From NCBI GenBank assembly GCA_947457845.1, contig CANGXM010000004.1, positions 1-39,704 on the forward strand: DNA of 39,704 nt. Direction: 5' to 3'. How positions within the stretch are numbered: the first letter of the stretch is position 1; every line of letters begins with the position of its first letter. The translations under genes were made by a program, and so were the position numbers. This document shows, in pieces, positions 989 to 27,162 of this stretch. This DNA is from Rhodospirillales bacterium (GTDB lineage: Bacteria; Pseudomonadota; Alphaproteobacteria; Azospirillales; Azospirillaceae). Below the pieces are notes generated by a model, which saw only the letters and a list, made by a program, of their open reading frames with translations, did no database searches and was not told the DNA's origin.

Positions 989-1858
989 ATGGGCGTACGG
1001 ACGAACGCGGGGGAACTGGTCGAGATGGCGGTGGCCGGTGCTGTGACGCAGCCGACCATCCGTCCCGCCGGCTACATCCCCGATCCCGACGGCAAGGCGA
1101 TGATCCTGCCGGGCATGTCGGGCGTGGTCTACAACGTGCGGGCCGGCGATCCGGCCTTCGGCTGGGCCGGCGACCACGTGGAGCCGGGCGTCTCCATCGC
1201 CCAGGCCGACGAGAAGCTGGACTTCGCGCTGCATTATCTCGCGTGCCTCGGCAACGACGCGGTCGTGACCAGCGGCCTCGCCGCCGGGGCGAAGGGCGTG
1301 TTGGTGGGCGAGCACGCCCGCCTCCTCGTCGAGTTCTCCGACGACGCCCACGCGATGATGAACGTGGGCGACATGGTGCAGATCAAGGCCGTCGGCCGCG
1401 GTCTGCGCATGATCGACTACCCGCAGGTGAACCTCAAGAAGATGAGCCCGCGCCTGTTCGAGGCGATGGGCGTCCAGGCGGTCGACAGCCGCAAGATCCG
1501 AGTCCCGGTGGCGATGGAGCTGCCGATCCGGATCATGGGCTCGGGCGCCGAGCTCAACAGCGAGTACGTGGACCAGGACCTGATGTCCGGCGACCGCGCG
1601 CTGATGGCCGAACTCGGCATCGACCGGATGCGGATGGGCGACCTGATCGTGATCAACCACGCCGATCACCACTGGGGCCGCAGCTATCGCAAGGATGCCG
1701 TGTCGATCTGCATCTGCATCCATGGCGATTCGATCATGACCGGGCACGGGCCGGGCATCCTCACGCTGATGACCTGCGCTGAGCCGTGCATCGAATGGAC
1801 CATCGACCCGAAGGCGAACCTCGCCGACCTCCTCCAGACCGAACGGGTGCGGGCATGA
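989..1858 (+). CDS. DUF4438-like protein, copy 1
   Basis: A 289-residue protein that I recognise, from memory of the family, as DUF4438, whose biochemical role is unknown. It has no signal peptide or membrane segment. Near the C-terminus it carries a His-rich stretch (NHADHHWGR) and a glycine motif TGHGPGILTLMT. A GTG at 911 would add 26 residues, but the ATG at 989 is preferred: it follows GAGGGACGAGG at 977-987, and from there the N-terminus lines up with copy 2 (M-x-V-x-TN). It overlaps copy 2 by 4 bases (ATGA) and so is probably co-translated with it. It is the first gene of an operon with a dehydrogenase, a creatinase-like hydrolase and an OppDF pair, so a catabolic role is likely. Family assignment is moderately sure; function is unknown. 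Confidence 0.75.
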   Translation: MGVRTNAGELVEMAVAGAVTQPTIRPAGYIPDPDGKAMILPGMSGVVYNVRAGDPAFGWAGDHVEPGVSIAQADEKLDFALHYLACLGNDAVVTSGLAAGAKGVLVGEHARLLVEFSDDAHAMMNVGDMVQIKAVGRGLRMIDYPQVNLKKMSPRLFEAMGVQAVDSRKIRVPVAMELPIRIMGSGAELNSEYVDQDLMSGDRALMAELGIDRMRMGDLIVINHADHHWGRSYRKDAVSICICIHGDSIMTGHGPGILTLMTCAEPCIEWTIDPKANLADLLQTERVRA

Positions 1859-2733
1859 CCGTCGCGACCAACGAGGACAAGCTCGTCGCCGTCTCGGTGA
1901 TGGGCCAGATCGTCCATCCCGGCTTCCCCGGCCTTCCGGCCGAACCCTACCGGCTCGCCGCGGACGGGACGCCCTTCCTGCTGCCCACATACGGCGGCAT
2001 CGTCTACAACGTCTCGGTCGGCGACAGCGCCTTCGGCTGGCAGGCCGACTGCGTCCACCCGGGCGTCAGCATCGCCTACCCGGCCGACCTCGGGAACCGC
2101 GGCCTCAACGTCTACGCCTGCGTGGGCAACGAGGCGGTGGTCATGACCGGCCGCGCCCAGGGGACGAAGGGCACGGTGACCGGCAAGTCGGGCCGCTTCT
2201 CCGAGCACGTGATCGTCCACTTCCCCAAGGCCGCACGCGAGATGATGGCGGTCGGCGACAAGATCGTCGTCCGCTCCAAGGGCGTCGGCATGGCGGTGAC
2301 GGACCACCCGGCGGTGAAGCTGAAGAGCCTGTCGCCGGAACTGTTCCGGGCGCTGGCCCCGTCGTCCGCGGGCGGGTCGCTCAAGGTTCCGGTCGTCGCC
2401 GTGGTTCCGCCGCACCTGGTCGGCGCCGGCGCCGGGCTGACCAGCGAGGGCGGCAGCATCCACATCCAGACAACCGACCGCGAGGAGGTGGCGAAGGCGG
2501 GGCTCGACGCGCTGCGCCTCGGCGACCTCGTGGCGCTGGCCGACACCGACAGCCGCTACCAGCACGGCTATCTGCGCGGGGCCACGGGCATCGCCGTCGT
2601 CGGCCAGACCGACGGGCCGCGGGCGGGCTACGGGCCGGGTCTCACGCTGCTGATGACGGGCACGGCCGGGGCGATCACGCCGGACGTCCGTCCGGGCGTG
2701 AACCTCCGCAGTCTCCTCAACCTCGCCGGGTGA
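1855..2733 (+). CDS. DUF4438-like protein, copy 2
   Basis: A 292-residue paralogue of the preceding protein. The two share blocks such as GxVYNVxxGDxAFGWxxDxVxPGVSI in the N-terminal half and the C-terminal GPGxxxLMTG. Copy 2 lacks the His-rich stretch: NHADHHWGR is replaced by a segment with Arg, Tyr and one His, and GHGPG becomes GYGPG. The pair may form a hetero-oligomer or have split roles; this is inference. The ATG at 1855 overlaps the upstream stop, and the gene's own TGA (2731-2733) overlaps a GTG at 2730 in the next frame. Function unknown. Confidence 0.75.
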   Translation: MTVATNEDKLVAVSVMGQIVHPGFPGLPAEPYRLAADGTPFLLPTYGGIVYNVSVGDSAFGWQADCVHPGVSIAYPADLGNRGLNVYACVGNEAVVMTGRAQGTKGTVTGKSGRFSEHVIVHFPKAAREMMAVGDKIVVRSKGVGMAVTDHPAVKLKSLSPELFRALAPSSAGGSLKVPVVAVVPPHLVGAGAGLTSEGGSIHIQTTDREEVAKAGLDALRLGDLVALADTDSRYQHGYLRGATGIAVVGQTDGPRAGYGPGLTLLMTGTAGAITPDVRPGVNLRSLLNLAG

Positions 2734-2744: not shown

Positions 2745-3815
2745 ATGGAGACGGCGATCGACATGGCGCGCGTCCCGCTGCCGGCGCTGCGGGACTTTAC
2801 CACGGCCTGCCTGCGGGCGATGGGCCTCACGACCGAACAGGCGGAGATCGTGGGCGGCGCGCTGGTGTTCAGCGAGCTGCGCTTCCATCCGGGGCAGGGG
2901 CAGGGGGTGCGGCGGCTGCGCTCCTACCGCGACCGGCTCGCGTCGGGGATCCTCGACGCGAATGCGCCGTTCGAGGTGGTCAAGTCGAGCCCCGCGCTGG
3001 CGCTCGTCGACGGTCACGGCGGGCTGGGCAGCGTCATCGGCATCAAGGCGATGCGCCTCGCCATCGCCAAGGCCAAGACCTGCGGCATCGGCACCGTGAT
3101 CGTCCGCAACGGCACGCACTACGGCTCCTCGGCCGTGCACGCGTCCGAGGCGCTGGCTCACGGCTGCATCGGCGTCGCCTACACCAACGCGGGGCCGGAG
3201 ATGGCGGCCTGGGGCGGGGCGTCGCCCGCGGTCGGCACGAACCCGTGGGCGATCGCCGCCCCGTCGGACAAGGGCTTTCCCGTCGTCCTCGACATCGCGC
3301 TCACCACGGCCGGCAAGGGCATGATGCGCTGGCACGCGCGGGAGGGGCGCACGATGCCGCTCGACTGGGCGCTCACCCCGGACGGGCACGAGACCGACGA
3401 CCCGGAGGCCGCGATGCAGGGTGCGCTTCTGGGCATCGGGCAGTACAAGGGGTACGGTCTGTCGCTGATGACCGACGTGCTGACCGGTGTGGTCTCCGGC
3501 GGCGGCTTCGGCCTCGCCCCCTATTCGGACCCAAAGCGGCAGGACGTGTCCCACAGCTTCACCGCGATCGACATCGACTGGTTCATGCCGCTGGCCGAGT
3601 TCGAGGGGCGGATGGGACGGTTCATCGACGAGATCAGGGCCGGGCGCAAGCGACCGGGGGTGAGCGAGATCCTCGTCCCGGGCGAGCAGGAGCACCGGCG
3701 CCTGACGGAGAAGACCCGGGACGGCGTGCCGCTCGACCGCACCGTCCTCGACGACATCACGACGCTCGGCCGCGAACTCGGCGTGCGCGAGACCCTGGAG
3801 GAGATCAACCGGTGA
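2745..3815 (+). CDS. Ldh-family (malate/L-lactate/ureidoglycolate-type) NAD(P)H-dependent dehydrogenase
   Basis: A 356-residue cytoplasmic oxidoreductase of the malate/L-lactate/ureidoglycolate dehydrogenase family (PF02615 type). It uses a non-Rossmann NAD(P) fold on 2-hydroxy acids or cyclic imino acids. Diagnostic segments are [26 protein letters not shown], and the late run [20 protein letters not shown]. Known family substrates include ureidoglycolate (AllD), malate, lactate and delta1-piperideine-2-carboxylate; the sequence does not choose among them. Start is uncertain: GTG 2730 overlaps the upstream stop, ATG 2745 follows GACGGGCGG, and ATG 2763 is also possible. A ureidoglycolate-type activity would fit the AllA- and PuuE-like genes at 21015-22414, but that link is only suggestive. 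It overlaps the M24 gene by GTGA. Confidence 0.85.
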
Positions 3816-4971
3816 CGGCCCCCCTGGAACCCCTGTCCCCGGCCTTCCACAAGGCGGTCGTCGAACGCATCCGCGCCTCGGTCGAGGCGGCCGGCGTCGA
3901 CGGCATGCTCGTGCTGGACACGCCGAACGTGGTCTATGCCACCGGCTTCTTCCACAGCGCCAACGAGCGGCCGATGGGCCTCTGGGTTCCGCGCCGTGGC
4001 GCGCCCTCGCTGCTCGTCCCGTTGCTGGAGCTGGAGAACGCGGCGGCGACCTGGATCAGCGACGTCCGCACCTACGAGGAGTTCCCGGGCGAGGTGCATC
4101 CCGTCCGCTGGATGGTGGCCAGCGTCGGCGCACGCCGGCTGATGGTCGACACGCTGTCGGCCGCGGTCCACCAGGCGCTCGCCCGCGACGTCGACGCCAT
4201 CGTCCTGACCGACCTCGTCGAGCGGCTGCGCGCGGTCAAGGGGCCGGCGGAGCTGGCGCTGGTGCGGGCCGCCGCGCGCTACGCCGACGCGGTGCTCGAC
4301 GCGATCCGGGCGCGGACCGCCGACATCGTGCGCGGCGGCGGCACCGAGCTCGACATCCTGTCGGCCGGCCTTTCGGCGGCGGCGGCGATGCAGAAGGCCG
4401 AACTCGGCCCCGCGTTCGGACACACCAAGGTCGGCCTGACCGGCACGGTCCACACCGGGCCGCGTGCGGCGCTGCCGCACGGCAAGGTGATCGCGCGCCG
4501 GCCGGACCCCGGCGACACGATGATCGCCGGCATCGGCGCCAGCGTCGGCGGCTATCATGCCGAGAGCGGGATCACGCTGATCCTGGGCGAGCCGACGGCC
4601 GACCAGCGCCACTGCCTGACCGCGGCGGCGGCGGCCAACGACGCGGCGGTCGCGGCGCTCAGGCCCGGAACGCCCTGCCGGGCGGTGAACGACGCGGCGC
4701 TGGCCGAGCTGCGCGCCGCCGGCCTCGGCGACGCGATCCGCCACCGCATCGGCCACGCCATGGGCGTGCAGGGGCACGAGGGACCGTGGCTGGCGCCCGG
4801 CGACGACACCCCCGTCGCCGTCGGAATGGTGTTCTCCAACGAGCCGGGCATCTATCGTCCCGGGATCGACGGCTACCGGACCATCAACACGATGATCGTC
4901 ACAGAGACAGGCGTCGAGGTGCCCAGTACCTTCCAGGCCCGCCATCCGCTCGACGCAAGGGTCGTGCCCCT

Positions 4972-4975
<4 letters not shown>
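3812..4975 (+). CDS. M24 (pita-bread) family hydrolase, creatinase-like, metal ligands incomplete
   Basis: A 387-residue protein starting at a GTG that overlaps the upstream stop. It has the two-domain layout of creatinase, prolidase and aminopeptidase P: N-terminal domain about 1-145, pita-bread domain about 146-385. The His motif [14 protein letters not shown] (311-324) and SNEPGIY (Glu344) are intact. The canonical ligands Asp-Asp-His-Glu-Glu read Gly240, Glu251, His315, Glu344 and Asn359, so three of five are changed. Known M24 members without metals, such as creatinase, hydrolyse C-N bonds in small amidino compounds rather than peptides. This protein may do likewise; the substrate is unknown. 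Its place after a dehydrogenase and before OppDF suggests it acts on an imported compound. Confidence 0.85.
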
Positions 4976-5974
<999 letters not shown>

Positions 5975-5982
<8 letters not shown>

Positions 5983-6991
5983 GATCATCGCGCCCGAGCG
6001 CCCGCCGGCGGCGTCGGCCGGGACCGTCGCGCCGCTTCTCGCGGTGCGCGACCTCAAGAAGCACTTCCCGATCAAGAGCGGCCTGCTCGGCCGGACGACT
6101 TCGTCCGTCAAGGCCGTCGACGGGATCAGCTTCGACGTCATGCCGGGCGAGGTCGTCGGCCTCGTCGGCGAGAGCGGGTCGGGCAAGACCACGGCCGGCC
6201 GCACCATCCTGCGGCTGGTCGAGCCCACCTCGGGCGAGATCGTGTTCGACGGCACGGACATCGCCAAAATCCCCGCCCCGGCGATGCGCGACTGGCGCCG
6301 GCGGATGCAGATCATCTTCCAGGACCCCTACGCCAGCCTCAACCCGCGCATGACGGTGGGGGAGATCGTCGGCCAGGCGCTGAAGATCCACCGCCTCGCC
6401 TCGGGCGCGGACATGGAGGACCGGGTCGTCCAGCTGCTCCAGAAGGTGGGGCTCGCGGCGTCCGCGGTGCGACGCTATCCGCACGAGTTCTCCGGCGGGC
6501 AGCGCCAGCGCATCGGCATCGCCCGCGCGCTCGCGGTCAGCCCGCAGTTCATCGTGGCCGACGAGCCGGTCTCGGCGCTGGACGTCTCGATCCAGGCGCA
6601 GGTGCTGAACCTGCTGCTGGACCTGAAGTCCGAACTCCAGCTCACCCTCCTCTTCATCGCCCACGACCTCAGCGTGGTCGAGTACATCTCCGACCGCGTG
6701 ATCGTGATGTATCTGGGCAAGATCATGGAGGTGGCGCCGGCGCGCGAGCTCTATCGCAACCCGGTCCACCCCTACACCCAGGCGCTCCTGTCGGCGATCC
6801 CGGTGCCCGACCCCACGGTGCGGCGCGAGCGGGTCATCCTCCAGGGCGACATCCCGAGCCCGATCAACCCGCCGTCGGGCTGCGTCTTCCGCACCCGCTG
6901 CCCGATCGCCGCACCCGAGTGCGCGAAGGTCGAGCCGCCGCTGGAGGCCGTCGGCCCCGGCCACTTCAAGGCGTGCATCCGCCGTCCCTGA
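5975..6991 (+). CDS. OppF/DppF-type ABC transporter ATPase (set 1)
   Basis: A 338-residue partner of the preceding ATPase. It starts at GTG 5975, overlaps the upstream gene by 8 bases, and is preceded by GGGAGAG. Walker A is GESGSGKT, the signature is [15 protein letters not shown], Walker B is [13 protein letters not shown], and the switch His is in [10 protein letters not shown]. The C-terminal region has the family's Cys pattern ([14 protein letters not shown]). OppD and OppF usually form a heterodimer beneath the two permeases. It resembles the OppF at 32816-33838 in the segment DLSVVEY, whereas the set 2 OppF differs there. Confidence 0.93.
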
Positions 6992-7011
6992 GAAGAACGA
7001 GAACAGCCACC

Positions 7012-8541
7012 ATGAGCATCGCCGCCCTCAACGACCGCATCGGCATGGTCAACGACGTGCTGAACAGCTGGGCCCTCCTCTACTGGGACAGCCGCACGAT
7101 GATGCCGCCGGGCGGCAACGACACCCGCGCCAAGCAGGTGTCGACCATGAAGGTCCTCGCCCACGGGCTCCTCGTCGCCGACGAGACCCGCCGCCTGCTG
7201 GACGCCGCCGAGACCGAGGTCGCGAACCGCCCGGCCGAGGACGCCGACCGGCGCATCGTGGCCCAGACCCGCGAGGCGGTGCAGCACCACCTCAAGATCC
7301 CGGCCGACCTGATCCGCCGCCGTGCCCAGCACGCGAGCGAGGCGGCCGCCGTCTGGGTGAAGGCGCGCACCGACAGCGACTTCTCCCTTTTCGCGCCCTA
7401 CCTCGAGAAGACGGTGGGCATGGCGCGGGAACTGGCCGACGCCATCGGCTACACGGGGCATCCCTACGACGCGCTGATGTACCAGTTCGAGCCAGGCGAG
7501 ACGGTCACGAGCCTGAGGTCCCTGTTCGCGGAACTGCGCGCGGGGATCGGCCCCGTGGTGAAGGCGACCACGGCGGTCGAGGCGCCCCGCAGCGACTTCC
7601 TCGAGCGGCACTACGAGCCGGAGAAGCAGGCGGCCTTCGCGAAGCAGATCGCGGCCAAGCTCGGCTACGACTTCGACCGCGGGCGCCTCGATGGGACCGT
7701 TCATCCCTTCGAGATCAGCTTCACCCGCAACGACGTGCGCATCACCACGCGCTACTACCCCAACTTCCTGCCCGCCAGCCTGTTCGGCACGATGCACGAG
7801 GCCGGTCACGGCCTCTACGAGCAGGGAATCGACCCGGCCTACACCCGCACCACGCTCGCGACCGACCTCGTCGGCCTCTATGCCGTCGGCGGCGTCAGCT
7901 TCGGCGCGCACGAGAGCCAGTCGCGCCTGTGGGAGAACCATATCGGCCGCAGCCGCCGGTTCTGGGACCTGCACTACGGCATGTTGCAGGAGACGTTCCC
8001 CGAGGCGCTGGGCGACGTGGACGTGGCCGCCTTCCACCGGGCGATCAACAGGGTCCGGCCCGGCTACATCCGTGTCGAGGCGGACGAGCTGACCTACGAC
8101 TTCCACATCATGCTGCGCGTCGACATCGAGACGCGGCTGGTGGACGGTACGCTGAAGGTGAAGGACCTGCCGGAGGCTTGGAACGCCGTCATCAAGCAGG
8201 AACTCGGCCTCGACGTGCCGAACGACCGGCTCGGCTGCCTCCAGGACATCCACTGGTCGTCGGGCCAGATCGGCACCTTCTGCAACTACACCATCGGCAA
8301 CGTGATGGCCGCACAGGTGCTGGAGACGGCGCGGGCCGAGGATCCGTCGATCCAGGCGTCGGTCGACGCCGGGAACTATGCGCCGCTGAAGGACTGGCTG
8401 ACGAACAACATCTACGTCCACGGCCGCCGCTTCGGCCGCGACGAGCTGCTCCAGCGGATCACTGGCCGCACGCTCGATCCCAAGCCCTACGTCAAGTATC
8501 TGCGCGACAAGTACACCGCACTCTACGGCGTGTCGGTCTGA
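7012..8541 (+). CDS. M32 family carboxypeptidase (carboxypeptidase Taq type)
   Basis: A 509-residue zinc metallocarboxypeptidase, close to the family's usual length of about 500. It removes single residues from peptide C-termini in the cytoplasm. The zinc motif HEAGH is at 262-266, and the third ligand is Glu301 in HESQSRLWEN. The family's HPF motif (231-233) and the DVRITTRY segment are present, as is RVEADELTYDFHIM further on. The start at 7012 lies 20 bases after the OppF stop, with only a weak purine-rich ribosome site. Its position at the end of an operon with an OppDF pair suggests it trims imported peptides. It ends 3 bases from the convergent MscS gene, with no clear hairpin terminator. 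Confidence 0.93.
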   Translation: MSIAALNDRIGMVNDVLNSWALLYWDSRTMMPPGGNDTRAKQVSTMKVLAHGLLVADETRRLLDAAETEVANRPAEDADRRIVAQTREAVQHHLKIPADLIRRRAQHASEAAAVWVKARTDSDFSLFAPYLEKTVGMARELADAIGYTGHPYDALMYQFEPGETVTSLRSLFAELRAGIGPVVKATTAVEAPRSDFLERHYEPEKQAAFAKQIAAKLGYDFDRGRLDGTVHPFEISFTRNDVRITTRYYPNFLPASLFGTMHEAGHGLYEQGIDPAYTRTTLATDLVGLYAVGGVSFGAHESQSRLWENHIGRSRRFWDLHYGMLQETFPEALGDVDVAAFHRAINRVRPGYIRVEADELTYDFHIMLRVDIETRLVDGTLKVKDLPEAWNAVIKQELGLDVPNDRLGCLQDIHWSSGQIGTFCNYTIGNVMAAQVLETARAEDPSIQASVDAGNYAPLKDWLTNNIYVHGRRFGRDELLQRITGRTLDPKPYVKYLRDKYTALYGVSV

Positions 8542-10093: not shown

Positions 10094-11125
10094 TCAGGCC
10101 GCCGCGACGCTCGTCGGCAGCAGGGCATCCACCTCGCCCGCCCGCCAGCAGGCAACGGGATGCGCGGCGCCCGGCATGGGAACCAGCGGCGGGGTCTCCG
10201 TCCGGCAGCGGGCCTCGGCGATGGGGCATCGCGAGGCGAATCGGCAGCCGTCGGGTGGGTTGAGCGGGGAGGGCACGTCGCCCTGGAGGATGATCCGGCG
10301 GCGCGCCCGCTCCGCCTTGGGGTCCGGCAGCGGCACCGCGCTCAAGAGGGCGCGGGTGTAGGGGTGGCGCGGGTTGTCGTAGACCGCGTCCTTCTCGCCC
10401 AGCTCGACGATCCGCCCCAGATACATCACCGCGACGCGGGACGAGAGGTGGCGGATGACGTTGAGCCCGTGCGCGATGAACAGATAGGTGAGGCCGATCC
10501 GCTCCTGCAGGTCCTGAAGCAGGTTCACCACCTGCGCCTGGATCGAGACGTCGAGTGCCGAGACGGGCTCGTCGCAGACCACGAGGTCGGGCTCGCAGGC
10601 GAGCGCGCGGGCGATCCCGATGCGCTGGCGCTGGCCGCCCGAGAATTCGTGCGGGAAGCGGCCGGCATGATTGGGGCTGAGGCCGACAAGGGTGAGGAGT
10701 TCGGCCACCCGCTCCTTGACCGCCGCGTCGCCCTGGCGGAGTTCGTGCAGGCGGATCGGCTCGGCGAGGCAGGCGCCGATCGACATGCGCGGGTTCAGGC
10801 TGGCGTACGGATCCTGGAAGATCAGCTGGACGCGCCGGCGTTCCCGCCGCATCTCCTCCTCGGGCAGGGTCGCGAGGTCGCGGCCGCGGAACCGCACCGC
10901 GCCGGCCGTGATCGGGGCGAGGCGCAGGATGGCGCGGCCGACGGTCGACTTGCCGCACCCGCTCTCGCCGACGAGGCCCAGCGTCTCGCCCCGCGCGATC
11001 GTCAGGTCGATGCCGTCGACCGCCTTCACGGTGCCGACCTGCCGCTCGAAGATCAGGCCCTTGAGGACGGGGAAGTGGACCTTCAGCCCGTCGATCTCGA
11101 TGAGGGTGGGGGCGGACTGGCTCAT
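10094..11125 (-). CDS. OppF/DppF-type ABC transporter ATPase (set 2, operon A)
   Basis: A 343-residue ATPase, last gene of operon A. Walker A is GESGCGKST, the signature is [15 protein letters not shown], and Walker B is [14 protein letters not shown]. The C-terminus carries [14 protein letters not shown]. One oddity: the segment after the switch His reads [12 protein letters not shown], so the Asp of the usual AHDL is Gly; the His itself is kept, so activity is not excluded. The ATG at 11125 overlaps the OppD stop (ATGA). With the binding protein and permeases upstream it completes a full importer. Confidence 0.93.
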
Positions 11126-12111
11126 GCGGCGGCGCTCCCGGCGCCCACGTCGAAGTGGCAGGCCGCGTGGTGGCCGGGGCCGACCGGGCGACGGGGCGGC
11201 GGGCTCTGGCGGCAGATGTCGGCGGCGAAGGTGCAGCGCGGCGCGAAGCGGCAGGACTTCGCGACGCCGATCGGCTCCGGCGGCGCGCCGCGGATGGGCG
11301 TGAGCCGCTTCGCACCCCCGCCGTCGAGCCGGGGGATGGAGGACAGGAGACCCATGGTGTAGGGCATGCACGGCGTCTCGAAGACGGCGTCGGTCGGCCC
11401 GTCCTCGACGACGCGCCCGCCGTACATGACGGCCACGCGGTCGGCCATGCCGGCGACGACGCCGAGGTCGTGGGTGATCAGCATCAGCGCCATCCCCAGT
11501 TCCTTCTGGAGATTGCGCAGGATGTCGAGGATCTGGGCCTGGATGGTGACGTCGAGCGCGGTCGTCGGCTCGTCGGCGATCAGCAGCTTGGGCCGGCAGG
11601 CGACCGCCATGGCGATCATCACCCGCTGGCGCATCCCGCCGGAGAAGTGGTGGGGATAGTCGTCGAGGCGCCTGGCCGCCGACGGAATCCCCACGAGGTC
11701 CAGCAGTTCGCCCGCCCGTGTCCGGGCGGCGGCGGCCGACAGGCCCATGTGGGTCTCCAGCACCTCCGTGATCTGCCGTCCCACGGTCAGCACCGGGTTC
11801 AACGAGGTCATGGGGTCCTGGAAGATCATCGCGATCTCCTTGCCCCGCACCCGCCGAAGGTCGGCGTCGGGTGCGGTCAGGAGGTCGCGACCCTCGAACA
11901 GGATGCGCCCGCCGGCGTACCGGCCCGGCGGGACCGGCACGAGGCGCATGATCGACATCGCGGTGATCGACTTCCCCGAGCCGCTCTCGCCCACGATGCC
12001 CAGCGTCTCGCCGCGCTCCAGCGTCAGCGACACCCTGTCCACGGCCCGGACCGTGCGGCCCTGGGAGGCGAACTCGACCTCGAGGTCGACGATCTCCAGC
12101 AATGCGGTCAA
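11122..12111 (-). CDS. OppD/DppD-type ABC transporter ATPase (set 2, operon A)
   Basis: A 329-residue ATPase if it starts at TTG 12111. Walker A is GESGSGKS, the signature is [14 protein letters not shown], Walker B is [14 protein letters not shown], and the switch His is in [10 protein letters not shown]-terminal Cys cluster ([14 protein letters not shown] and a later Cys) is present. Start choice: a GTG at 12117 sits only one base after GGAGG (12119-12123), whereas TTG 12111 has a normal 7-base spacing, so TTG is preferred. Either start overlaps the end of the Gfo/Idh/MocA gene, which implies translational coupling. Confidence 0.92.
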
Positions 12112-13142
12112 ATCCACGCCTCCAGCCCATGCCGGCGGTAGAACTCCGCCATCTCCACCCGTCGGCCCGTCTCCGTGCTCTCGATGCCGGCGAAACAGAG
12201 CGCCAGCGTGCGCAGATGGTCGCGACCGTCGCACGGGACGGGCGTGCCCGCCTTCAGTGCCGCGAGGAAGGCGTCGAGCAGGTTGCGCGTGTCGTCCTTG
12301 AACGCCTCGCAGGGCGCGATCGGGACGGGGGTCAGCGCCTCGTCCTCCTTCTTCGCCTTGGCGATGTCCTCGAACAGCTCGCGCTGGATGATGACGCCGT
12401 CCGCGCAGTCGGTGCGCCAGTCGAAGTCGTTGCCGTTCCAGCCCGACGACCAGGTGCCGATGTAGTTGACCTCGACCCCGCCCTCGAACGTCAGCAGCGC
12501 GTTCACGTTGGCGTCGTGGGCGTACATCGACCAGGGCGGGTTCCACGTCCGGCAGGCGATCGCCTCCACCTCGCGCCCGTAGACGAAACGCATCAGGTCG
12601 AGATGGTGGATCGACTGCTCCAGCATCATCGGGTGCCGCATGGTCAGCGGATACCGGTTGAGGCCGGGGCGGTAGCCGTTGCGGTTCCGCAGGTAGACGA
12701 ACTGACCGAAACCCGGTGCGCCGAGTTCGCCCGACGCGATGAGGTTCCGGTACGCCTGGGTGACGGTGAGGTATCGGAAGTTGAGGCCGACGGTGAGGGG
12801 CAGCCGGTGCCCCTCGGCCAGCTTCACGATCTCCACCGCCTCCGCCATCTCGGTCGTCAGCGGCTTCTCGGCCAGGAGCGCGAGCCCGGCGCCATAGATC
12901 CGCCGGGCCTGGTCGAGATGGCCGTCGGGCGGGGTCACCAGGGTGACGAAGTCCGCCTTCGTGCCCGCCAGCGCCGCGTCGAGGTCGGTGAACTGCGGTA
13001 TGCCCGGCCAGCGCGCCGCGAAGCGTTCGAGGCGCGCCGGATCGAGGTCCATGACGCCGGCGAAGTCGACGTCCGGGTGGGCGGCGATGATCTCCGCCCA
13101 CATGGTGCCCCGGTTGCCGAGGCCGACGAGGAGGGTCTTCAT
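12108..13142 (-). CDS. Gfo/Idh/MocA family oxidoreductase
   Basis: A 344-residue NAD(P)-dependent oxidoreductase. The N-terminal Rossmann domain begins [16 protein letters not shown] (4-19). [15 protein letters not shown] carries the conserved EKP Lys. The C-terminal alpha/beta domain includes [15 protein letters not shown], the usual D-x3-H-like catalytic region. Family members oxidise or reduce cyclic polyols, sugars or related hydroxy compounds, and the exact substrate is not visible. The gene overlaps the aminotransferase stop (ATGA) and the next OppD start. Pairing with an aminotransferase, an amidohydrolase and a glycosidase-like protein suggests the imported compound may have a sugar-like part; this is inference. 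Confidence 0.88.
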
Positions 13143-14323
13143 GCCCAGATCTTCGCCTTGGCCGCATCGATCCGCGCGACCGCCTCGCGGATGCGCTCGA
13201 TCGGCTGGAGAAGGCCGATGCGGGTGTGGCGGCCGGCCGGGTCGGCGAAGCTGGTGCCCGGCAGCAGGAGCACCCGGGCCTCCAGCAGCAACCGCTCGCA
13301 GAAGTCCGCCGCAAGCCGGCCCGTCGAGGAGACGTTGACGTAGATGTAGAAGGCGCCGCCCGGGTGTCCGTAGCTGAGGCCCCAGCGGTCGAGTTCGCCC
13401 ATCATGTAGGTCCGGCGCTCGCCGTAGGCCTTGAGCATCGCCTGTACCGGCTCCTGCGGGCCGGTCAGTGCGGCGAGTGCGGCCCATTGCGACGGCGTCG
13501 CCGCATTGATCGAGAGCGTGTGCCGCGGCTCGATCAGGCGGCGGATGAAATCCTTGGGCGCCGCGAGGTAGCCGACGCGCCAGCCGGTCATGGCGTGGGA
13601 CTTGGAGAAGCCGTTGAGCGTGATCGTGCGCTCGCGCATGCCCGGCAGCGTGCCGATCGACAGGTGCTCGCTGCCGTCGAAGATCAGCTTGGCGTAGATC
13701 TCGTCGGAGAGGACGACGATGTCCTTCTCGATGCAGATCCGCGCGATCTCCTTGATCATGTCGGGCGGGGTGACGGCGCCGGTCGGGTTGTTCGGCGTGA
13801 TCAGCACCAGCGCCTTGGTCTTGGGCCCGATCCGCTTCTCGATCTCCGACGGCAGGAGTGCGTAGTCCGTCTCCTGCACCGTCGGAACCTCGACCACCGT
13901 GCCGCCGCACATCTGGATGGCGGTGTCGTAGCTCGTGAAGCGCGGGGCCGGGAGCAGCACCTCGTCGCCCGGCTTCACCAGCGCCAGCATGCAGAGCATG
14001 ACGGCTTCCTGGGTGCCGGCGGTGACGATCACCTCGTCCTGGTCGTAGGCGAGGCCGTAGTCGTCGGCGAGGTGCTTGGCGATCGCCTGGCGCAGCTGCG
14101 GCACGCCGGCGGGATGGGTGTAGTGGTGTTCGTTCCGGTCGATCGCCGCCTTCGCCGCCTCGACGATGTGGGCGGGCGTGTGGAAATCCGGGTCGCCGCG
14201 GCCCATGGCGATGACGTCGGGCAGCTTGGCCGCCATCTCCAGCATCTTCGTGCGGAAGGAGACGTCCTCCTCCTTCGCCCGGCCCGACAGGGCGGCGATC
14301 AGGCGGCTTTCACCAGCAGTCAT
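13139..14323 (-). CDS. Class I PLP-dependent aminotransferase (operon A)
   Basis: A 394-residue fold-type I aminotransferase. The PLP lysine is Lys241 in GFSKSHAMTGWR. Other cofactor contacts visible are Asn178 (NNPTG), Asp207 and Tyr210 (SDEIY), and Arg249. It transfers an amino group between an amino acid and a 2-oxo acid in the cytoplasm; substrate unknown. It aligns with almost no gaps to the aminotransferase at 24072-25268 (Lys241 in both), so the two are paralogues in the two transporter operons. It starts 2 bases after the amidohydrolase stop and overlaps the following oxidoreductase. Confidence 0.92.
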   Translation of the reverse strand: MTAGESRLIAALSGRAKEEDVSFRTKMLEMAAKLPDVIAMGRGDPDFHTPAHIVEAAKAAIDRNEHHYTHPAGVPQLRQAIAKHLADDYGLAYDQDEVIVTAGTQEAVMLCMLALVKPGDEVLLPAPRFTSYDTAIQMCGGTVVEVPTVQETDYALLPSEIEKRIGPKTKALVLITPNNPTGAVTPPDMIKEIARICIEKDIVVLSDEIYAKLIFDGSEHLSIGTLPGMRERTITLNGFSKSHAMTGWRVGYLAAPKDFIRRLIEPRHTLSINAATPSQWAALAALTGPQEPVQAMLKAYGERRTYMMGELDRWGLSYGHPGGAFYIYVNVSSTGRLAADFCERLLLEARVLLLPGTSFADPAGRHTRIGLLQPIERIREAVARIDAAKAKIWA

Positions 14324-14325
14324 GG

Positions 14326-15552
14326 TCAGACCATCCTCTTGCCTTCGAGGAAGGTCGCCCGGACCTTCCCGATGTCCGCGATGTCGGCGAGCGGGTTCCC
14401 GTCGACGACGATGACGTCGGCGAGCTTGCCCGGCTCCAGCGTGCCGAGCTTCTCGTCCATCTTGTTGAGCTTCGCCGCGACGGCCGTGGCGCTGCGAATG
14501 GCGGCATAGGCGTCGGCGACGACGCCCACCTTGATCATGAACGCCATCTCGGGCGCGATCACCTCGTGCCCCACGGCCGGACTGCCGCAGTCGGTGCCGA
14601 ACGCGATCGGCACGCCCGCCTTGGCGGCGGCGACGAGGCCGGCGTAGCGCTTGGGATCGGCGATCGCCTTCTGGCGCTCGGCGATCTTCCATTCCGGGAT
14701 GTTGAACTTGCGTGCGATGTCGGGCTGCGACTGCATCACGAGCGGCGCGAAGGTGGTGACGATCGGCACCTTCTTCTCGACCAGGAGGCCGATCGTCTCC
14801 TCGCTCATCGACCCGCCGTGCTCGATCACGTCGATCCCGAAGCGGACGACGCGGTTGATGGCGGCGTCGAAGGTGGCGTGCGCGGTGATCGGCAGCCGGT
14901 TGCGGTGCGCCTCGTCGATGACGGCGTGGAGCTCCTCGTCGGTGAACTCGAGCGTGTCGTGGCAGGCCATGATCTTGATGAGGTCGGCGCCGCCGCGCAC
15001 CTGCTCGCGCACCGCGCGGCGCATCTCGTCCGCACCCGACGCCTCGCGGCAGCACCAATAGGTGTGACCGCCGGTCTGCACGATGCCCTCGCCGCACACG
15101 AGCAGGCGCGGGCCGGGGAAGAGGCCCTGCGCCACCGCCTGCTTGGCGACGAGGTTCGCCTTGTTCATGCCGAGGTCGCGGAACGTGGTCACCCCGCTGC
15201 GCAGGTTGATCAGCATGTTGCCCGCGGACTTGTAGGCGCTGATCTCCGGCGGGTCGTTCATCGACTGGTTTGCGAGGTCGTGGATGCCGTCCCACGCCAG
15301 GTGCCCGTGGCTCTGGAACAGGCCGGGCAGGATGGTGCCCCCGGTCGAGACCGCGCCCTCGGCGCGGCTGCCAAGGTCGGCGCGCTTGCCGACCGCCTTG
15401 ATCTTCGCGCCCTCGATCTCGACGAACCCGTCCTCGATCACCTCGTCGCCGACCGCGGTCAGCACCCGGCCGAGCAGGATGTGGTTCCCGGTCGGATACT
15501 CGAACATCGGGCGGATCAGCTTCTGGAAACGCCACGGAGCCTGTTCGGGCAT
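14326..15552 (-). CDS. Amidohydrolase, imidazolonepropionase-like (COG1228 type), operon A
   Basis: A 408-residue metal-dependent hydrolase of the amidohydrolase superfamily. Expected ligands are visible: His82 and His84 (SHGHLAW), a probable carboxylated Lys193 (LIKIMAC), His225 (ITAHA), His245 (IEHGG) and Asp321 (GTDCG). A short beta-sandwich segment precedes and follows the barrel. Some members of this group have been shown to be dipeptidases ('prolidases') acting on Xaa-Pro or Xaa-Lys/Arg peptides and N-acyl amino acids, which would fit an Opp-transporter operon. It has no signal peptide, so it is cytoplasmic. A paired-hairpin repeat separates it from the upstream glycosidase-like gene. 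Confidence 0.9.
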   Translation of the reverse strand: MPEQAPWRFQKLIRPMFEYPTGNHILLGRVLTAVGDEVIEDGFVEIEGAKIKAVGKRADLGSRAEGAVSTGGTILPGLFQSHGHLAWDGIHDLANQSMNDPPEISAYKSAGNMLINLRSGVTTFRDLGMNKANLVAKQAVAQGLFPGPRLLVCGEGIVQTGGHTYWCCREASGADEMRRAVREQVRGGADLIKIMACHDTLEFTDEELHAVIDEAHRNRLPITAHATFDAAINRVVRFGIDVIEHGGSMSEETIGLLVEKKVPIVTTFAPLVMQSQPDIARKFNIPEWKIAERQKAIADPKRYAGLVAAAKAGVPIAFGTDCGSPAVGHEVIAPEMAFMIKVGVVADAYAAIRSATAVAAKLNKMDEKLGTLEPGKLADVIVVDGNPLADIADIGKVRATFLEGKRMV

Positions 15553-15672: not shown

Positions 15673-17100
15673 TCAGCCCTTCGGCTTGATCCCGAGTTCC
15701 TCCAGCGCGCGCGCACCGCCGTCGAGGTTCGACAGGTTCATGCCCGCGTAGTTGGGGGAGTAGACGACGCCCTCGCCGCCGGCGCGGTAGGTGGCGTGGA
15801 CGCTGCGATAGACGATGTCGGGCGTACAGACGGCCTGGTCCGCGCGCACCCGCGGCGCGTCGACGCCGATGCCCATGTAGACCTTGGCCTTGCCGTTCAC
15901 CCCGCGCACGGCGTCCTGGCACTGGCCGAAGACGTAGGTGTCGGGGTCCATGCCCTTCTGGATCACCTCGCCCCACGGCGCCTCGTTCAGGCCGAGGACG
16001 CGGTACATGGCCGGGATGAACTCCTCGGGCCCGTAGTCCTTGAGGACCGTGCTGGCGAAGAAGCCCATCTCCTTGGCGAACACCTCGCCGGACTGATGCT
16101 GGTAGGTGATCGGCTTGACCCAGTCGGCCCAGCCGGTCTGCTCCTCCCAGCCCCACTGGGCCTTGCGGATCGGGTTGAAGTGGTTGCGGTTCCAGACGTT
16201 CAGCCCGAAGGAGAGCTTCGGATTGCACCACTTCACGATGCCGTAGAGCTCACGGTCGAGGTCCTTGGAGCGCTCCAGCCAGAACCGCTCCCACACCAGG
16301 ACCTCGGGGTTGCGCAGCAGCACGCGCAAGAACTCGACGAAGGCACCGTCCACGAAGGTCGAACCCTTCTCCCGGCACTTGCGGAAGAAGTCCCAGACCT
16401 CGCGGAAGGCGAGCTTCACGCGCTCCACGTCGATCCCGCGCTCCATCGCCTCGCGCCGGCAGTGCGGGCAGAAGCAGCCGGGCGCCTGGCCCTGCATCAT
16501 GCGGTCGAGCGGGCTGTTGCGCTCGTTGCACCACATGATGCCGTCGATGTCGTAGTTCCGGGCGTGGTCTTCGACGATCCCGTGCCACCACTTGCGATAA
16601 TCGGCGTTGGACGTGCAGGGCTCACCGGCATAGCGGCCTTCGAGGTCGATCTCGAGGCACTGGGGCATGTTCGGGATCTTGACCTCGGCGGCCGAACCAT
16701 GGCCCGCGTACTTGAACAGCGGCTCCATGAACTCGGGGATCACCTTCATCCCGCGGGCCTTGGCCTTGGGGATGACGAGGTCGAGGATGTCGGTGTCGCC
16801 GATCTCCTTGTCCTTCGACCGGAACTCCTTGATGAAGGTGCCGGTGAAGAACTGCGGCTTCGACTTCAGGTACGAGCCGCCCTCCATCGTGTAGGGCGCG
16901 GGAACCCCGTGGTCGGGCCACCCTTCGAGCGCGTGGCTGATCCGGCGGCCGACCTTGAGGCCGAGCCACGAGATCGTGCCGATCATCAGCACGTTCACGC
17001 CGCAGCGGTTCTGGAGCGTGTCCAGCACCGCGTCCACCCCCTCGTCCACGAAGCTGATGGGGCTGATCTGGATGCCGACGAAGGGATCGGTCTTGCTCAT
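15673..17100 (-). CDS. TIM-barrel glycoside-hydrolase-like protein
   Basis: A 475-residue protein resembling the 'hypothetical glycosyl hydrolase' (GHL) TIM-barrel families; I cannot place it firmly in one. It has a barrel-strand segment GMKVIPEFMEP (118-128) and a strand-end motif DIDGIMWCNERNSPLDRMM (184-202) in which Glu193 is a candidate catalytic acid. That is followed by Cys209, Cys211 and Cys214 (GCFCPHC), a likely metal- or structure-binding Cys cluster that I recall from such proteins. There is no signal peptide, so it is probably cytoplasmic, which is unusual for a polymer-degrading glycosidase but fits small imported substrates. It sits between the permease and amidohydrolase genes of operon A. 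Confidence 0.7.
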   Translation of the reverse strand: MSKTDPFVGIQISPISFVDEGVDAVLDTLQNRCGVNVLMIGTISWLGLKVGRRISHALEGWPDHGVPAPYTMEGGSYLKSKPQFFTGTFIKEFRSKDKEIGDTDILDLVIPKAKARGMKVIPEFMEPLFKYAGHGSAAEVKIPNMPQCLEIDLEGRYAGEPCTSNADYRKWWHGIVEDHARNYDIDGIMWCNERNSPLDRMMQGQAPGCFCPHCRREAMERGIDVERVKLAFREVWDFFRKCREKGSTFVDGAFVEFLRVLLRNPEVLVWERFWLERSKDLDRELYGIVKWCNPKLSFGLNVWNRNHFNPIRKAQWGWEEQTGWADWVKPITYQHQSGEVFAKEMGFFASTVLKDYGPEEFIPAMYRVLGLNEAPWGEVIQKGMDPDTYVFGQCQDAVRGVNGKAKVYMGIGVDAPRVRADQAVCTPDIVYRSVHATYRAGGEGVVYSPNYAGMNLSNLDGGARALEELGIKPKG

Positions 17101-18013: not shown

Positions 18014-18019
18014 GGTGCC

Positions 18020-21014: not shown

Positions 21015-21494
21015 TCATCCGACGATCGACAGAGGGGACGGGAGGCGGTGCCACGCGGTGTCGGCGTCGGTGTCGGTCCGCGGCCAGACGACGGCGAAGG
21101 CACCGTCCCGGTCGAGTGTCGCCGCCGGCGCGTGCCAGACCCCGGGTGCGAAGGAGACGCCGGCCGTGCCGGGCAGGACGAAGGCGTGGACGTCGTCGAG
21201 GTCCGGCGTGCCGTCCGCCGCCGTTCCGGCCACCACCACGACGAACCGGGAGACGTCGAGGGGCAGGAAGGTCTGCCAGTTGTGCGGATGCCGCTCAAAG
21301 GCGGGAAGCGGGTGGGGCAGGGCGACCGCCTTCGTCCGGTTCACGTGGAGCCGCGGCACGAGGCCGTGCCCGGCCTCGAACGCGAGGCACTCGCTGTAGT
21401 CGGCCCGCACGCCGGCCTCCGCCGGCGCCTCCAGCAGCCGGCCGAAGCGGCGGAAGGCGGTGGCGTCCGGCGAACCGGCCGTCACCGTCCTCAC
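21015..21494 (-). CDS. Ureidoglycolate lyase-like protein (AllA family)
   Basis: A 159-residue cupin-type protein of the ureidoglycolate lyase family. Family members split ureidoglycolate into glyoxylate and urea in purine/allantoin breakdown. Diagnostic parts are HPHNWQTFLPLD, the FVVVVAG strand, HAFVLPGTAGVSFAPGVWH and the C-terminal FAVVWPR. Length is normal (about 160-170). It starts at GTG 21494, overlapping the allantoinase stop (GTGA), and is the last gene of operon B. With the PuuE-like neighbour it suggests ureide breakdown, but no allantoicase or allantoate amidohydrolase is visible between the two steps, so the true substrate may be another ureido acid. Confidence 0.85.
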   Translation of the reverse strand: MRTVTAGSPDATAFRRFGRLLEAPAEAGVRADYSECLAFEAGHGLVPRLHVNRTKAVALPHPLPAFERHPHNWQTFLPLDVSRFVVVVAGTAADGTPDLDDVHAFVLPGTAGVSFAPGVWHAPAATLDRDGAFAVVWPRTDTDADTAWHRLPSPLSIVG

Positions 21495-22414
21495 GCCGCC
21501 ACGCCCATGCGGAACCGTTCGGCCCAGTGGCGGGCGATGTCGACCCGCCCCGTGGTCCAGACGCCGGGCGTGCCGGCGACCAGATCCATGAAGCGCGCCA
21601 GCCCGGCGATCCGGGCCGGATGGCCGAGGATGCGGGGGTGGATGCCGACCGACATCATCTTCGGATGAGACGCGCCCTCGGCGTACAGGACGTCGAACGC
21701 GTCCTTCAGCATCTCGAAGAACGCGGTCGTGGTCCCGTGGGTGCCCATCAGCTTCACGTCATTGGTGACCAGCGAATAGGGCACCACGAGGTGCTGCCGC
21801 CCGCTCACCTGCACCCAGTAGGGAAGCTCGTCGTTGTAGGCGTCGCTGTCGTAGAGGAAGCCGCCCTCCTCGACGAGGATCTCGCGGGTCCGCACGCTCG
21901 GCGCATAGCGGCAGTACCAGCCGAGCGGGCGCTCGCCCGTCGTCTCGACGAGGCTCCGGACCGCGAGCTGGATCTGCTCGCGCTCCTCATCGGGCGTCAG
22001 CTTGTAGTGCTCGATCCAGCGGTTCCCGTGGCAGCAGACGTCCCAGCGGGTCTGGCGGATCAGCGCGGCCACCTGCGGATTGCGGGCGATCGCCTGGGCG
22101 CAGCCGAAGACCGTCGCCGGCAGGCCCCGCTCCTGAAACAGCCGCGCGATGCGCCAGATGCCCACGCGGCTGCCGTACTCGTACATGCTCTCCGAGGCGA
22201 GGTCGCGGTCGCCGACCGGAACCCGCGGGGCGGCCACCTCGGTGAGCGTCGCCTCCGAGCGCCCATCGCCGTCGCCGATCGAATACTCGGATCCCTCCTC
22301 GTAGTTGATCACGAAATTGACCGCGAGCCGCGCCCCGCCCGGCCAGGCCGGATCGGGCGGGTTCGGGCCGTAGCCGACGAAGTCTCGTCTCGCCGGATCG
22401 CGCGTCTTCGGCAT
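21491..22414 (-). CDS. PuuE-type allantoinase / polysaccharide-deacetylase-fold hydrolase
   Basis: A 307-residue protein of the polysaccharide deacetylase superfamily, closest to PuuE, the cofactor-independent allantoinase. Characteristic segments are RRDFVGYGPNPPDPAWPGGA, FVINYEEGSEYSIGDGD, ERPLGWYCRYAPSVRT and GGFLYDSDAYNDELPYW. Allantoinase opens the ring of a cyclic ureide (allantoin to allantoate); related members may act on other cyclic amides. It has no signal peptide and is cytoplasmic. It is followed immediately by the AllA-like gene and preceded, 32 bases away, by the deacylase gene. Confidence 0.88.
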   Translation of the reverse strand: MPKTRDPARRDFVGYGPNPPDPAWPGGARLAVNFVINYEEGSEYSIGDGDGRSEATLTEVAAPRVPVGDRDLASESMYEYGSRVGIWRIARLFQERGLPATVFGCAQAIARNPQVAALIRQTRWDVCCHGNRWIEHYKLTPDEEREQIQLAVRSLVETTGERPLGWYCRYAPSVRTREILVEEGGFLYDSDAYNDELPYWVQVSGRQHLVVPYSLVTNDVKLMGTHGTTTAFFEMLKDAFDVLYAEGASHPKMMSVGIHPRILGHPARIAGLARFMDLVAGTPGVWTTGRVDIARHWAERFRMGVAA

Positions 22415-22446
22415 GGGCGTCCGTCCCCCCGATCGTCGCCCCGGCC

Positions 22447-23457
22447 TCACGGCCGGGTGCGCGGCCCCTGGACCTTGTTGAAGAAGCAGCACCAGTCGCC
22501 GGTGGTCACGTTCACCAGCGCGCGCAGGCCGAAGATCATGCCGTCCGCCGGCGCCTTCAGCTCGGCCAGCGGCTTGCCGAAGAAATCGACGATGGTGGCG
22601 ATCTTCGTCCCCGCCTTCATGGGGGTCAGGAACTCGATGTCCGGCTCCGGCAGGAACATGCCCGACGCCGGCGCCAGGAGAGCCTCCTGAGCGCCCTTGG
22701 TGGGGTTCGGGTCGTACTGCGCCTCGCCCGGGATCATCTTGTAGTGCCGCATGACGTTCAGCAGCGCGTCGGCCAGCGTGCGGCCGACCTTGTGGAACGC
22801 CTTGGGCGAGGTGGCCGAGCGGCCGCCGAGCTCGACCGTGATCCCGGCCTTGCCCTCCTCGGCCATGACGGCCATCGGGTTCCCCTTCGGATTGAAGGAG
22901 GACATGATGCAGCCCCAGCCCGGACCCATGGCGAGGCCGAGTTCGACCGATTCCGGCCGCTCGTCCACGAACATCGCCTCGGCGAGGTAGGAGTGCGCGC
23001 CGCCCGAGTGGATCGAGATCTCGAGGTCGGCCACCTTGCGCATCCACTCGGAATGCGCCCAGGTAATCCGCTCCGTCAGATAGCCGTTGGCGCGGCCCGG
23101 ATAGATGCGGTTGGCGTCGTGGCTGAAGGTGTCCAGCGGATTGCCGCGGCACGCCGCCTCGAACGCCGGGACGTTGATCACCGGCACGAGCACGAGGGTG
23201 CCCGCCAGCGTGTCGGGCGAGACCTCGCGCAGCACGTGCTGGATCGCCATCGGGCCTTCCGGCTCGTCGCCGTGGATGGCGCCGTCGATCCAGAGCGTCT
23301 TGCCGGCGGACTTGCCGTTGATGATCACGACCGGGATCTCGATCGCGGAACCGCCCCCCAGCGTCGTGACGGGGATGGCGCCGTAGGCGACGGTACCGGG
23401 GGCGGCCTTCGCGGTCCCGACCTCGACCGTCTTCGTGTTGGTCTCGGCCATGGTCAT
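22447..23457 (-). CDS. AspA/AstE-like M14 deacylase
   Basis: A 336-residue zinc enzyme of the succinylglutamate desuccinylase/aspartoacylase group. It should hydrolyse the amide bond of an N-acyl amino acid or similar compound in the cytoplasm. Zinc ligands are His62 and Glu65 (HGDEPEGP) and His150 (ISIHSGG). DANRIYPG (114-121) corresponds to the family's DLNR-FPG, and Glu209 (TVELGG) is the likely catalytic acid/base. The ATG at 23457 overlaps the stop of the VOC gene. A C-terminal lobe (about 240-336, ending near FFNKVQGPRTRP) looks like the biotinyl/lipoyl-like beta domain common in this group. Confidence 0.88.
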   Translation of the reverse strand: MTMAETNTKTVEVGTAKAAPGTVAYGAIPVTTLGGGSAIEIPVVIINGKSAGKTLWIDGAIHGDEPEGPMAIQHVLREVSPDTLAGTLVLVPVINVPAFEAACRGNPLDTFSHDANRIYPGRANGYLTERITWAHSEWMRKVADLEISIHSGGAHSYLAEAMFVDERPESVELGLAMGPGWGCIMSSFNPKGNPMAVMAEEGKAGITVELGGRSATSPKAFHKVGRTLADALLNVMRHYKMIPGEAQYDPNPTKGAQEALLAPASGMFLPEPDIEFLTPMKAGTKIATIVDFFGKPLAELKAPADGMIFGLRALVNVTTGDWCCFFNKVQGPRTRP

Positions 23458-23948
23458 CAGATCCCCTTCACTTCGTTGTACTTCTGGAGTTCGTCCGGCG
23501 TGTAGACCTGCATGAACTCGATCTCGATGCCGCCCGCGTCGTTGTCGAGGAAGGCCACGTAGCCCTCGGGGTGCGGGTGGCTGCCGAAGACCTGGCAGGA
23601 CTTGCAGATGCGCAGCTCGCCGCCCGACGTCTTGGCGTGGTCGAGCGCCTTCTCGATGTCGTCGACCTCGTAACAGATGTGGTGCAGGCCCTCGGCGTTG
23701 CGCTCGGAGATCCACGAGGCGAAGCGGCCGTCGCCATCCATGCTCTCGCAGAGCTGGTACTCGATGCCGCCGAGGTTGAAGAGCGCCACGCGGTTGCGCG
23801 ACTTGCCGTACTCGATGATCTGCGTCTCGGCGGGCACGTGCAGGAAGCGGGCGTAGGCCTCCAGCGCCTTCTTCGCGTCCTTCACGGCGAAGGCCATGTG
23901 CTTGATGCCGACGACGTTCGGGTTGTCGGACTTCACGGGTGCGGACAT
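23457..23948 (-). CDS. VOC-family protein, methylmalonyl-CoA epimerase-like
   Basis: A 163-residue vicinal-oxygen-chelate protein. The segment GLHHICYEVDDIEKAL (87-102) closely matches methylmalonyl-CoA epimerase. Expected metal ligands are visible: His17, Gln65, His90 and Glu144. Epimerases of this type invert a stereocentre next to a carbonyl. Other VOC members are dioxygenases or glyoxalases, so the activity is not certain. The operon context, with deacylase and allantoinase next, suggests it racemises an intermediate of the same pathway. It follows a paired-hairpin repeat and overlaps the deacylase start by one base. Confidence 0.82.
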   Translation of the reverse strand: MSAPVKSDNPNVVGIKHMAFAVKDAKKALEAYARFLHVPAETQIIEYGKSRNRVALFNLGGIEYQLCESMDGDGRFASWISERNAEGLHHICYEVDDIEKALDHAKTSGGELRICKSCQVFGSHPHPEGYVAFLDNDAGGIEIEFMQVYTPDELQKYNEVKGI

Positions 23949-27113: not shown

Positions 27114-27162
27114 GGGGCGTCAGCGTGTCCTGGGGGATGCCGTCGGTCTCGCGCGGCGTGGG

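Follow-up and report, generated by a model that had tools for sequence, protein, structure and literature searches.

Tandem DUF4438 paralogues with unlike sets of conserved, putatively reactive residues in a putative catabolic gene cluster

Our analysis of a 39,704-nucleotide stretch of DNA from a Rhodospirillales bacterium (the window) indicates that two adjacent genes for DUF4438 proteins, here called D1 and D2, have diverged in a specific manner. As judged by alignment, D1 retains most of the family's conserved set of putatively reactive residues, and in D2 this set has been replaced, not decayed. We tentatively propose, with a probability of about 0.47, that D1 and D2 arose by gene duplication and together would form a single obligate heteromeric enzyme; the cluster around them would import and dismantle a compound that is peptide-like or amide/ureide-containing. 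Our searches found DUF4438 to be structurally known from two crystal entries of one protein. The pair provides a natural experiment, in that the positions changing together in one copy mark a likely active site; the conserved cluster, in turn, offers candidates for the substrate and for the phenotype of knock-outs.

The gene pair and its surroundings in the window

A preliminary description of this DNA had proposed two overlapping paralogous genes related to DUF4438, and both parts of that proposal hold. The genes lie on the plus strand close to the window's left end, the start of D2 overlapping the stop of D1 via ATGA, and their products are 36% identical (Table 1). Profile searches matched D1 to PF14505 (2.7e-45, 153.8 bits) and PF20999 (4.6e-42, 143.3 bits), and D2 to PF14505 (3.7e-50, 169.6 bits) and PF20999 (1.5e-35, 122.3 bits). 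Both the N-terminal (PF14505) and the C-terminal (PF20999) domain thus exceed the curated Pfam cut-offs (24.9 and 27, respectively) in each protein, and both proteins are full-length members of DUF4438. A beta-lactamase model of NCBIfam matched D1 at 20 bits, far below its cut-off of 650, and this match was taken as chance. A search of the whole genome of the window returned exactly two DUF4438 matches, D1 and D2. Among 82 genomes searched from the window's order, the family was found only in the window's own, which suggests that it was acquired by transfer. Viral contigs searched with D1 gave no relative, and plasmids searched with D2 gave no match.

The only solved DUF4438 protein found was TM1086 from Thermotoga maritima (PDB 3dcl and 3n99), which matches residues 3-282 of D1 (2.7e-58) and residues 4-284 of D2 (8.5e-61). 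In the passages of PMC2661377 that concern it, 3DCL appears as a table row and in a remark on its very large asymmetric unit. The entries hold 5 chains (3dcl) and 30 chains (3n99), numbers that are compatible with a ring-like oligomer. No function for TM1086 was found in the library searched; our literature search likewise returned no paper naming DUF4438 or PF14505, and nothing on the gene set of the cluster or on inactive subunits. Structures of D1 and D2 were predicted from shallow alignments, each of seven close sequences. The D1 model is of moderate quality (pLDDT 56, pTM 0.63), and a fold search with it placed the TM1086 entries at Z 16.9 and 16.7, the next best match reaching 6.0; superposition of this model (pLDDT 56) on 3dcl (Z 16.9) gave an rmsd of 3.1 over 215 residues. 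Beyond TM1086, its N-terminal region gave middling matches to the F1-ATPase beta-barrel and to BesA (Z <=6.0), which we leave uninterpreted. The D2 model is poor (pLDDT 39).

Table 1. Features of the window, with strand and remarks
Feature	Coordinates	Strand	Remarks
D1	989..1858	+	DUF4438 protein, 289 aa, near-canonical set of putatively reactive residues
D1 putatively reactive residues			H63, E65, H109, D195, D197, H224 (replaces D), D226, R231, H245, H253
D2	1855..2733	+	DUF4438 paralogue, 292 aa, rewired set of putatively reactive residues
D2 putatively reactive residues			C66, H68, S112, S201, H203, D230, D232, H237, Q251, Y259 (D2 numbering)
Ldh_2 family oxidoreductase	2745..3815	+	follows D2
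M24/creatinase-fold protein	3812..4975	+	canonical metal-ligand positions altered
OppD-type ABC ATPase	4786..5982	+	longest open frame; Pfam scan on 4975-5979
OppF-type ABC ATPase	5975..6991	+	
M32 carboxypeptidase Taq	6919..8541	+	HEAGH motif present; longest open frame
OppF/OppD-like region	10094..12130	-	overlapping open frames; similarity to the window's own OppD/OppF, without Pfam scan
GFO/IDH/MocA oxidoreductase	12108..13142	-	relative of L033 cluster gene
Class I aminotransferase-fold PLP enzyme (AspC)	13139..14326	-	
Amidohydrolase AHa	14326..15552	-	similarity to L033 gene, 592 bits
GHL, conserved 475-aa cluster protein	15673..17100	-	no Pfam match
OppC	17126-18013	-	
OppB	18132-19067	-	
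534-aa open frame	19071-20675	-	no Pfam match
NodB-fold deacetylase	21491..22447	-	L033 relative matches allantoinase PuuE below cut-off
AstE/AspA-type deacylase	22447..23460	-	
Second class I aminotransferase-fold PLP enzyme	24072..25268	-	
OppC, OppB, solute-binding protein (SBP_bac_5)	25303..28958	-	another dipeptide/oligopeptide-type transporter

The plus-strand genes follow the order D1-D2-Ldh_2-M24-OppD-OppF-M32. The preliminary description had linked the pair to Ldh, M24 and OppDF genes; the link is real, but its extent was drawn too narrowly, because M32 and the minus-strand genes at ~10-29 kb are also relatives of cluster genes. The pair belongs to a wider, conserved and putatively catabolic cluster of Ldh_2, M24, M32, aminotransferases, amidohydrolases, a deacylase and Opp transporters. 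Up to ~29 kb, the minus strand carries GFO, an aminotransferase, AHa, GHL, Opp genes, the deacetylase, the deacylase and the second aminotransferase, which are cluster genes in a rearranged order. An epimerase frame truncated at the left edge of the window gave a moderate match (156 bits) to the cluster epimerase; neither AHb nor the DHDPS-type gene was found within the window. In this high-GC DNA the cluster genes were called by longest open frame, and some starts are too early.

Gene names were taken from Pfam and NCBIfam scans of a second locus, L033, and from PDB searches. The nearest models to the L033 AHa were Xaa-Pro dipeptidase (below cut-off) and amidohydrolases. The L033 copy of GHL has a sub-threshold match to glycosyl-hydrolase-like 10, and GHL is another candidate enzyme, of a family without assignment. 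In the M24 protein, alignment to solved prolidases shows two Asp replaced by Gly and Glu and the last Glu replaced by Ile, at positions that we take to be metal ligands in prolidases. The altered residues recur in the eight orthologues compared, and the protein may be a creatinase-like, non-metal member of its family.

Putatively reactive positions in the two copies

The alignment comprised 129 rows from the fetched loci, namely, 58 unpaired proteins (including TM1086), 36 D1 and 35 D2. The groups were taken from a 127-row tree that omitted DUF4438 matches of <240 aa and identical sequences; a truncated D2 (L137) and TM1086 were added for the alignment, and the truncated D2 was omitted from the signature and Fisher counts, which leaves 34 D2 rows. 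The unpaired proteins, from Chlorobiota, Desulfobacteraceae, Nitrospiraceae, Chloroflexota and other genomes of the window's phylum, belong to the same family as D1 and D2. Ten positions (63, 65, 109, 195, 197, 224, 226, 231, 245 and 253 in D1 numbering) were picked after the alignment was seen. At these positions, 56 of 58 unpaired proteins read HEHDDDDRHH, the exceptions being TM1086 (V at 231) and L125. D1 proteins read HEHDDHDRHH (32/36) or HEHNDADRHH (3/36), and one of the 36 is fully canonical. D2 proteins read CHSSHDDHQY (29/34), CHSSHNDHQY (2/34) or RQHSEDDSHH (3/34), and H63, E65, D195, D197 and R231 are gone from all 34 scored rows. The D1 of the window keeps nine of the ten canonical residues (D224 is H) and its D2 keeps two; neither has the canonical set of the unpaired type.

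The GHGPG, GDHVEPG and IH(G/S)D motifs and the D195/D197 pair are retained in the D1 of the window and altered in its D2. The contrast between GHGPG in D1 and GYGPG in D2 and the asymmetry between the two copies had both been described from the first reading, and both are real by alignment; several further His and acidic residues are lost from D2 as well. TM1086 resembles D1 in having GDHVEPG, GHGPG and nine of the ten canonical residues, with V at 231. It carries DHDNSYG and, unlike D1, has Asp at 224. Unlike D2, it has the canonical residues at the HxE, DxD and GHGPG positions.

A test independent of the ten chosen positions gave the same picture for D2. Among residues invariant in the unpaired set (>=97% of unpaired rows), D2 has lost 8 of the 16 that are H, E, D, R, K or C and 5 of the other 40 (p 0.005 by a one-sided Fisher test). 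The corresponding losses from D1 are 2 of 16 and 7 of 40 (p 0.80). This bears on the possibility that the differences between D1 and D2 are ordinary paralogue drift without functional meaning. Many substitutions are indeed expected between copies that are only 36% identical; however, the losses from D2 concentrate on the reactive invariants, they are near-uniform across D2 proteins, and dN/dS is low (see below). We regard drift as hardly credible.

The NHADHH segment of D1 requires a different interpretation from the one first given to it. It had been read as a His-rich region kept by copy 1 and lost by copy 2 only. Unpaired members instead read DHDNRYGR-like sequences there, and His224, His227 and His228 mark D1. 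Position 224 is Asp in all 58 unpaired proteins and His in 32 of 36 D1; position 225 is His in 50 of 58 unpaired proteins and, instead, Ala (31), Gln (4) or Ser (1) in D1, with the His also gone from D2. His227 occurs in 36/36 D1, 3/58 unpaired and 0/35 D2 proteins, and position 228 is His in 30 of 36 D1, Arg being the commonest unpaired residue (38/58). These counts do not support an ancestral His-rich segment lost from copy 2 only, and NHADHH, as far as the alignment tells, is no retained ancestral feature.

Pairwise dN/dS values across ten hand-picked locus pairs were 0.031-0.166 for D2, 0.027-0.129 for D1 and 0.025-0.166 for Ldh_2; these are rough, some synonymous distances being >1. The ten D2 residues were invariant across the seven D2 proteins compared. 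By these measures D2 is under purifying selection, with dN/dS like that of D1, and because low dN/dS is combined with invariant replacement residues, D2 is on sequence grounds a re-specialised protein rather than a decaying copy.

Occurrence of the pair and its cluster in other genomes

A scan with the D1 alignment of one genome per species (84,980 species) gave 44 loci, of which 26 are of D1 type (L058-L082 and L100) and 18 have a single DUF4438 frame. D2 was found in 25 of the 26 D1-type loci, and the exception, L075, runs into a contig end. With L033 and four Chloroflexota loci, these 26 named-record loci make 31 pair loci besides the window (L033 and L069 being the same genome). In 30 of the 31, D1 and D2 are adjacent, on the same strand and in the order found in the window, the remaining one being L075. 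The D1-D2 gap is -10 to +7 bases in 28 of these 30 loci, and 41 and 78 bases in the other two. The early suggestion of a coupled pair thus gains from both the fixed arrangement and the purifying selection on D2, which fit, at the level of sequence, the hetero-oligomer or split of function envisaged at the time.

Whole-genome counts were made in several groups. Among relatives of G220 (see below), the family was present in 9 of 61 genomes, each with exactly two matches, and exactly two were found in each of G536, G537, G545 and G546, searched whole; G536 has the coordinates of G447, one of the G220 relatives. In other two-match genomes of the phylum sample (G217, G249, G270 and G282), the matches are either located on separate contigs or fragments of a single gene, and do not form a tandem pair. 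The family occurred in 69 of 398 genomes sampled from the window's phylum, 11 of 251 from the phylum of G540 (Chloroflexota) and 4 of 247 from that of G538 (Desulfobacteraceae). No tandem partner was seen beside an unpaired DUF4438 gene in the loci examined, whole genomes having been searched for some only. An actinobacterial origin was rejected for the pair of L059, a record titled Enemella evansiae, by its name presumably an actinobacterium: its genome, G536, shares match coordinates with G447, of the same class and family (f28) as G220, which corresponds to the record of L069, an uncultured Roseicyclus. The record is probably mislabelled.

The cluster is conserved along with the pair. The following counts refer to the 26 named-record D1-type loci within the stretch fetched, and many absences fall at contig or stretch ends. 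Ldh_2 follows D2 in 25 loci, the other being cut by a contig end; M24, like Ldh_2, is present in 25. M32 occurs in all 26; in 25 of them it lies a short way upstream of D1 in divergent orientation, and in L058 it lies ~8 kb downstream. The two aminotransferases were found in 23 and 25 loci. Five further genes, AHa, AHb (hydantoinase/allantoinase-like), GHL and those for the AstE/AspA deacylase and the NodB-fold deacetylase, were each found in 23. GFO/IDH and the epimerase occur in 22 loci, the DHDPS-type gene in 18 and at least one Opp gene in 15. In Chloroflexota, the G599 pair is accompanied by Ldh_2, two aminotransferase-like frames, a 2-hydroxyacid dehydrogenase and a hydantoinase-like gene. 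The neighbours of the three other Chloroflexota pairs include a 2-hydroxyacid dehydrogenase and a KDPG/KHG aldolase (L139), GFO/IDH (L136 and L139) and a short-chain dehydrogenase (L136).

Unpaired members differ from the pair in this respect. Their annotated neighbours are mostly unrelated housekeeping or transport genes: RmuC with a nitrilase, a class II tRNA synthetase, YchF, SelB, an RlmL-type methyltransferase, MFS transporters and an ABC ATPase; one (L035) adjoins an amine-oxidoreductase-like gene. The operon had been put forward as functional context for the family as a whole. Since the annotated neighbours of unpaired members are mostly unrelated, the context belongs instead to the paired subfamily. 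DUF4438 proteins thus seem to occur in two settings, unpaired and scattered or paired and catabolic, and annotation should therefore not pass from one to the other. Family f54 contributes many genomes with one DUF4438 gene each to the phylum sample; in the one f54 locus examined (L036, 7861-12277), the gene lies between RmuC and an aspartyl-protease/nitrilase run.

In a tree of 48 rows chosen from the 129, with the ten positions masked, a branch separated each of the unpaired, D1 and D2 sets from the remaining rows; support was moderate (78/54, 78/84 and 79/87, respectively). Approximately unbiased tests presume groups named before the tree, and the groups here were named from the 127-row tree; the p-AU values below are to be read with this in mind. 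Forcing together the two copies of the Chloroflexota G599 pair was rejected (p-AU 4.3e-5). An independent duplication is thus rejected for G599, and on this tree-based evidence its pair derives from the same duplication as the alphaproteobacterial pairs. For three long-branched Chloroflexota pairs (G689, G697 and G785), independent duplication was not rejected (p-AU 0.26); holding the alphaproteobacterial and G599 copies as one clade was not rejected either (p-AU 0.25). The second copies of these three pairs have lost H63, E65, D195, D197 and R231 and kept H109, H245 and H253. The Chloroflexota loci L136, L138 and L139 hold very divergent tandem DUF4438 pairs, in which the second copy has also lost HxE and DxD, by shared descent or convergence.

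A possible two-subunit enzyme and its alternatives

Two-subunit enzymes exist in which one paralogue keeps the active site and the other loses it. D1 and D2 are like these in forming an ordered gene pair with one near-canonical copy and one altered but conserved copy; the likeness is an analogy, with no claim of membership. In the heteromeric enzyme that we favor, one gene duplication would have yielded both subunits. D1 would carry the family's ordinary site, made up of His63, Glu65, His109, Asp195, Asp197, Asp226, Arg231, His245 and His253. The ten aligned positions may form one site, which in D1 probably binds metal. Having kept most of the family set, D1 is the leading candidate for a catalytic role. 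D2 would have given up the ordinary site and would hold another conserved set (Cys, His, Ser, Ser, His, His, Gln and Tyr); it would either bear a second, different site or assist D1 structurally, as a regulator or as a substrate gate. The family names of the cluster genes point to a route in which Opp transporters would import a peptide-like or amide/ureide compound, to be broken down stepwise by peptidase, amidase, deacylase, aminotransferase and Ldh_2.

The main rival is that D1 and D2 are separate homo-oligomeric enzymes of different or consecutive pathway steps, D2 with a new Cys/His/Ser/Gln/Tyr site. In its favor, the replacement residues of D2 are themselves conserved, 29 of the 34 scored rows sharing the full ten-residue signature, and purifying selection on D2 is strong. 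Paralogous enzymes that presumably act apart are also found elsewhere in the L033 cluster (two aminotransferases and two amidohydrolases). Adjacency in a fixed order with mostly near-zero spacing speaks against two independent enzymes, as does the occurrence of D1 without D2 only in L075, at a contig end, among the 26 named-record loci; yet adjacency alone is no proof of a complex, because the cluster genes are conserved together. A mirror-tree comparison of evolutionary rates did not single out the pair: the D1-D2 partial correlation was 0.45, rank 6 of 66 gene pairs, over 21 loci with all 12 genes (L058, L069, L071, L072, L075 and L080 were omitted beforehand), a result that sits well with two enzymes. 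If the Chloroflexota pairs are orthologous, both subunits have been kept across pathways, which favors one working unit, an argument weakened by the possibility that the three long-branched pairs arose by independent duplications (p-AU 0.26, above). On balance, two separate enzymes are a serious but doubtful possibility.

The disappearance of H63, E65, D195, D197 and R231 from every scored D2 could also mean that D2 is a non-enzymatic scaffold, regulator or metabolite sensor of D1 or of the cluster. Its replacements, however, are near-uniform and chemically specific (HxE to CxH, DxD to SxH and R to H, in 31 of 34 rows), a degree of constraint that would exceed the need of a mere scaffold, and we think such a role quite unlikely. 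A more elaborate form of the heteromeric reading would give the obligate enzyme two unlike sites, the duplication having turned a homomeric site rich in O-ligands (HxE, DxD and His) into a near-canonical D1 site and a soft-ligand Cys/His/His/His site in D2. The product would be an interchangeable two-subunit module serving different catabolic pathways in Alphaproteobacteria and Chloroflexota; this version seems unlikely.

The 40-kb window contains sets of Opp/Dpp-type transporter genes at 4786-6991, 10094-12130, 17126-19067, 25303-28958 and 31800-33838. Several such sets in one stretch suggest that import may extend to two or more peptide-like compounds.
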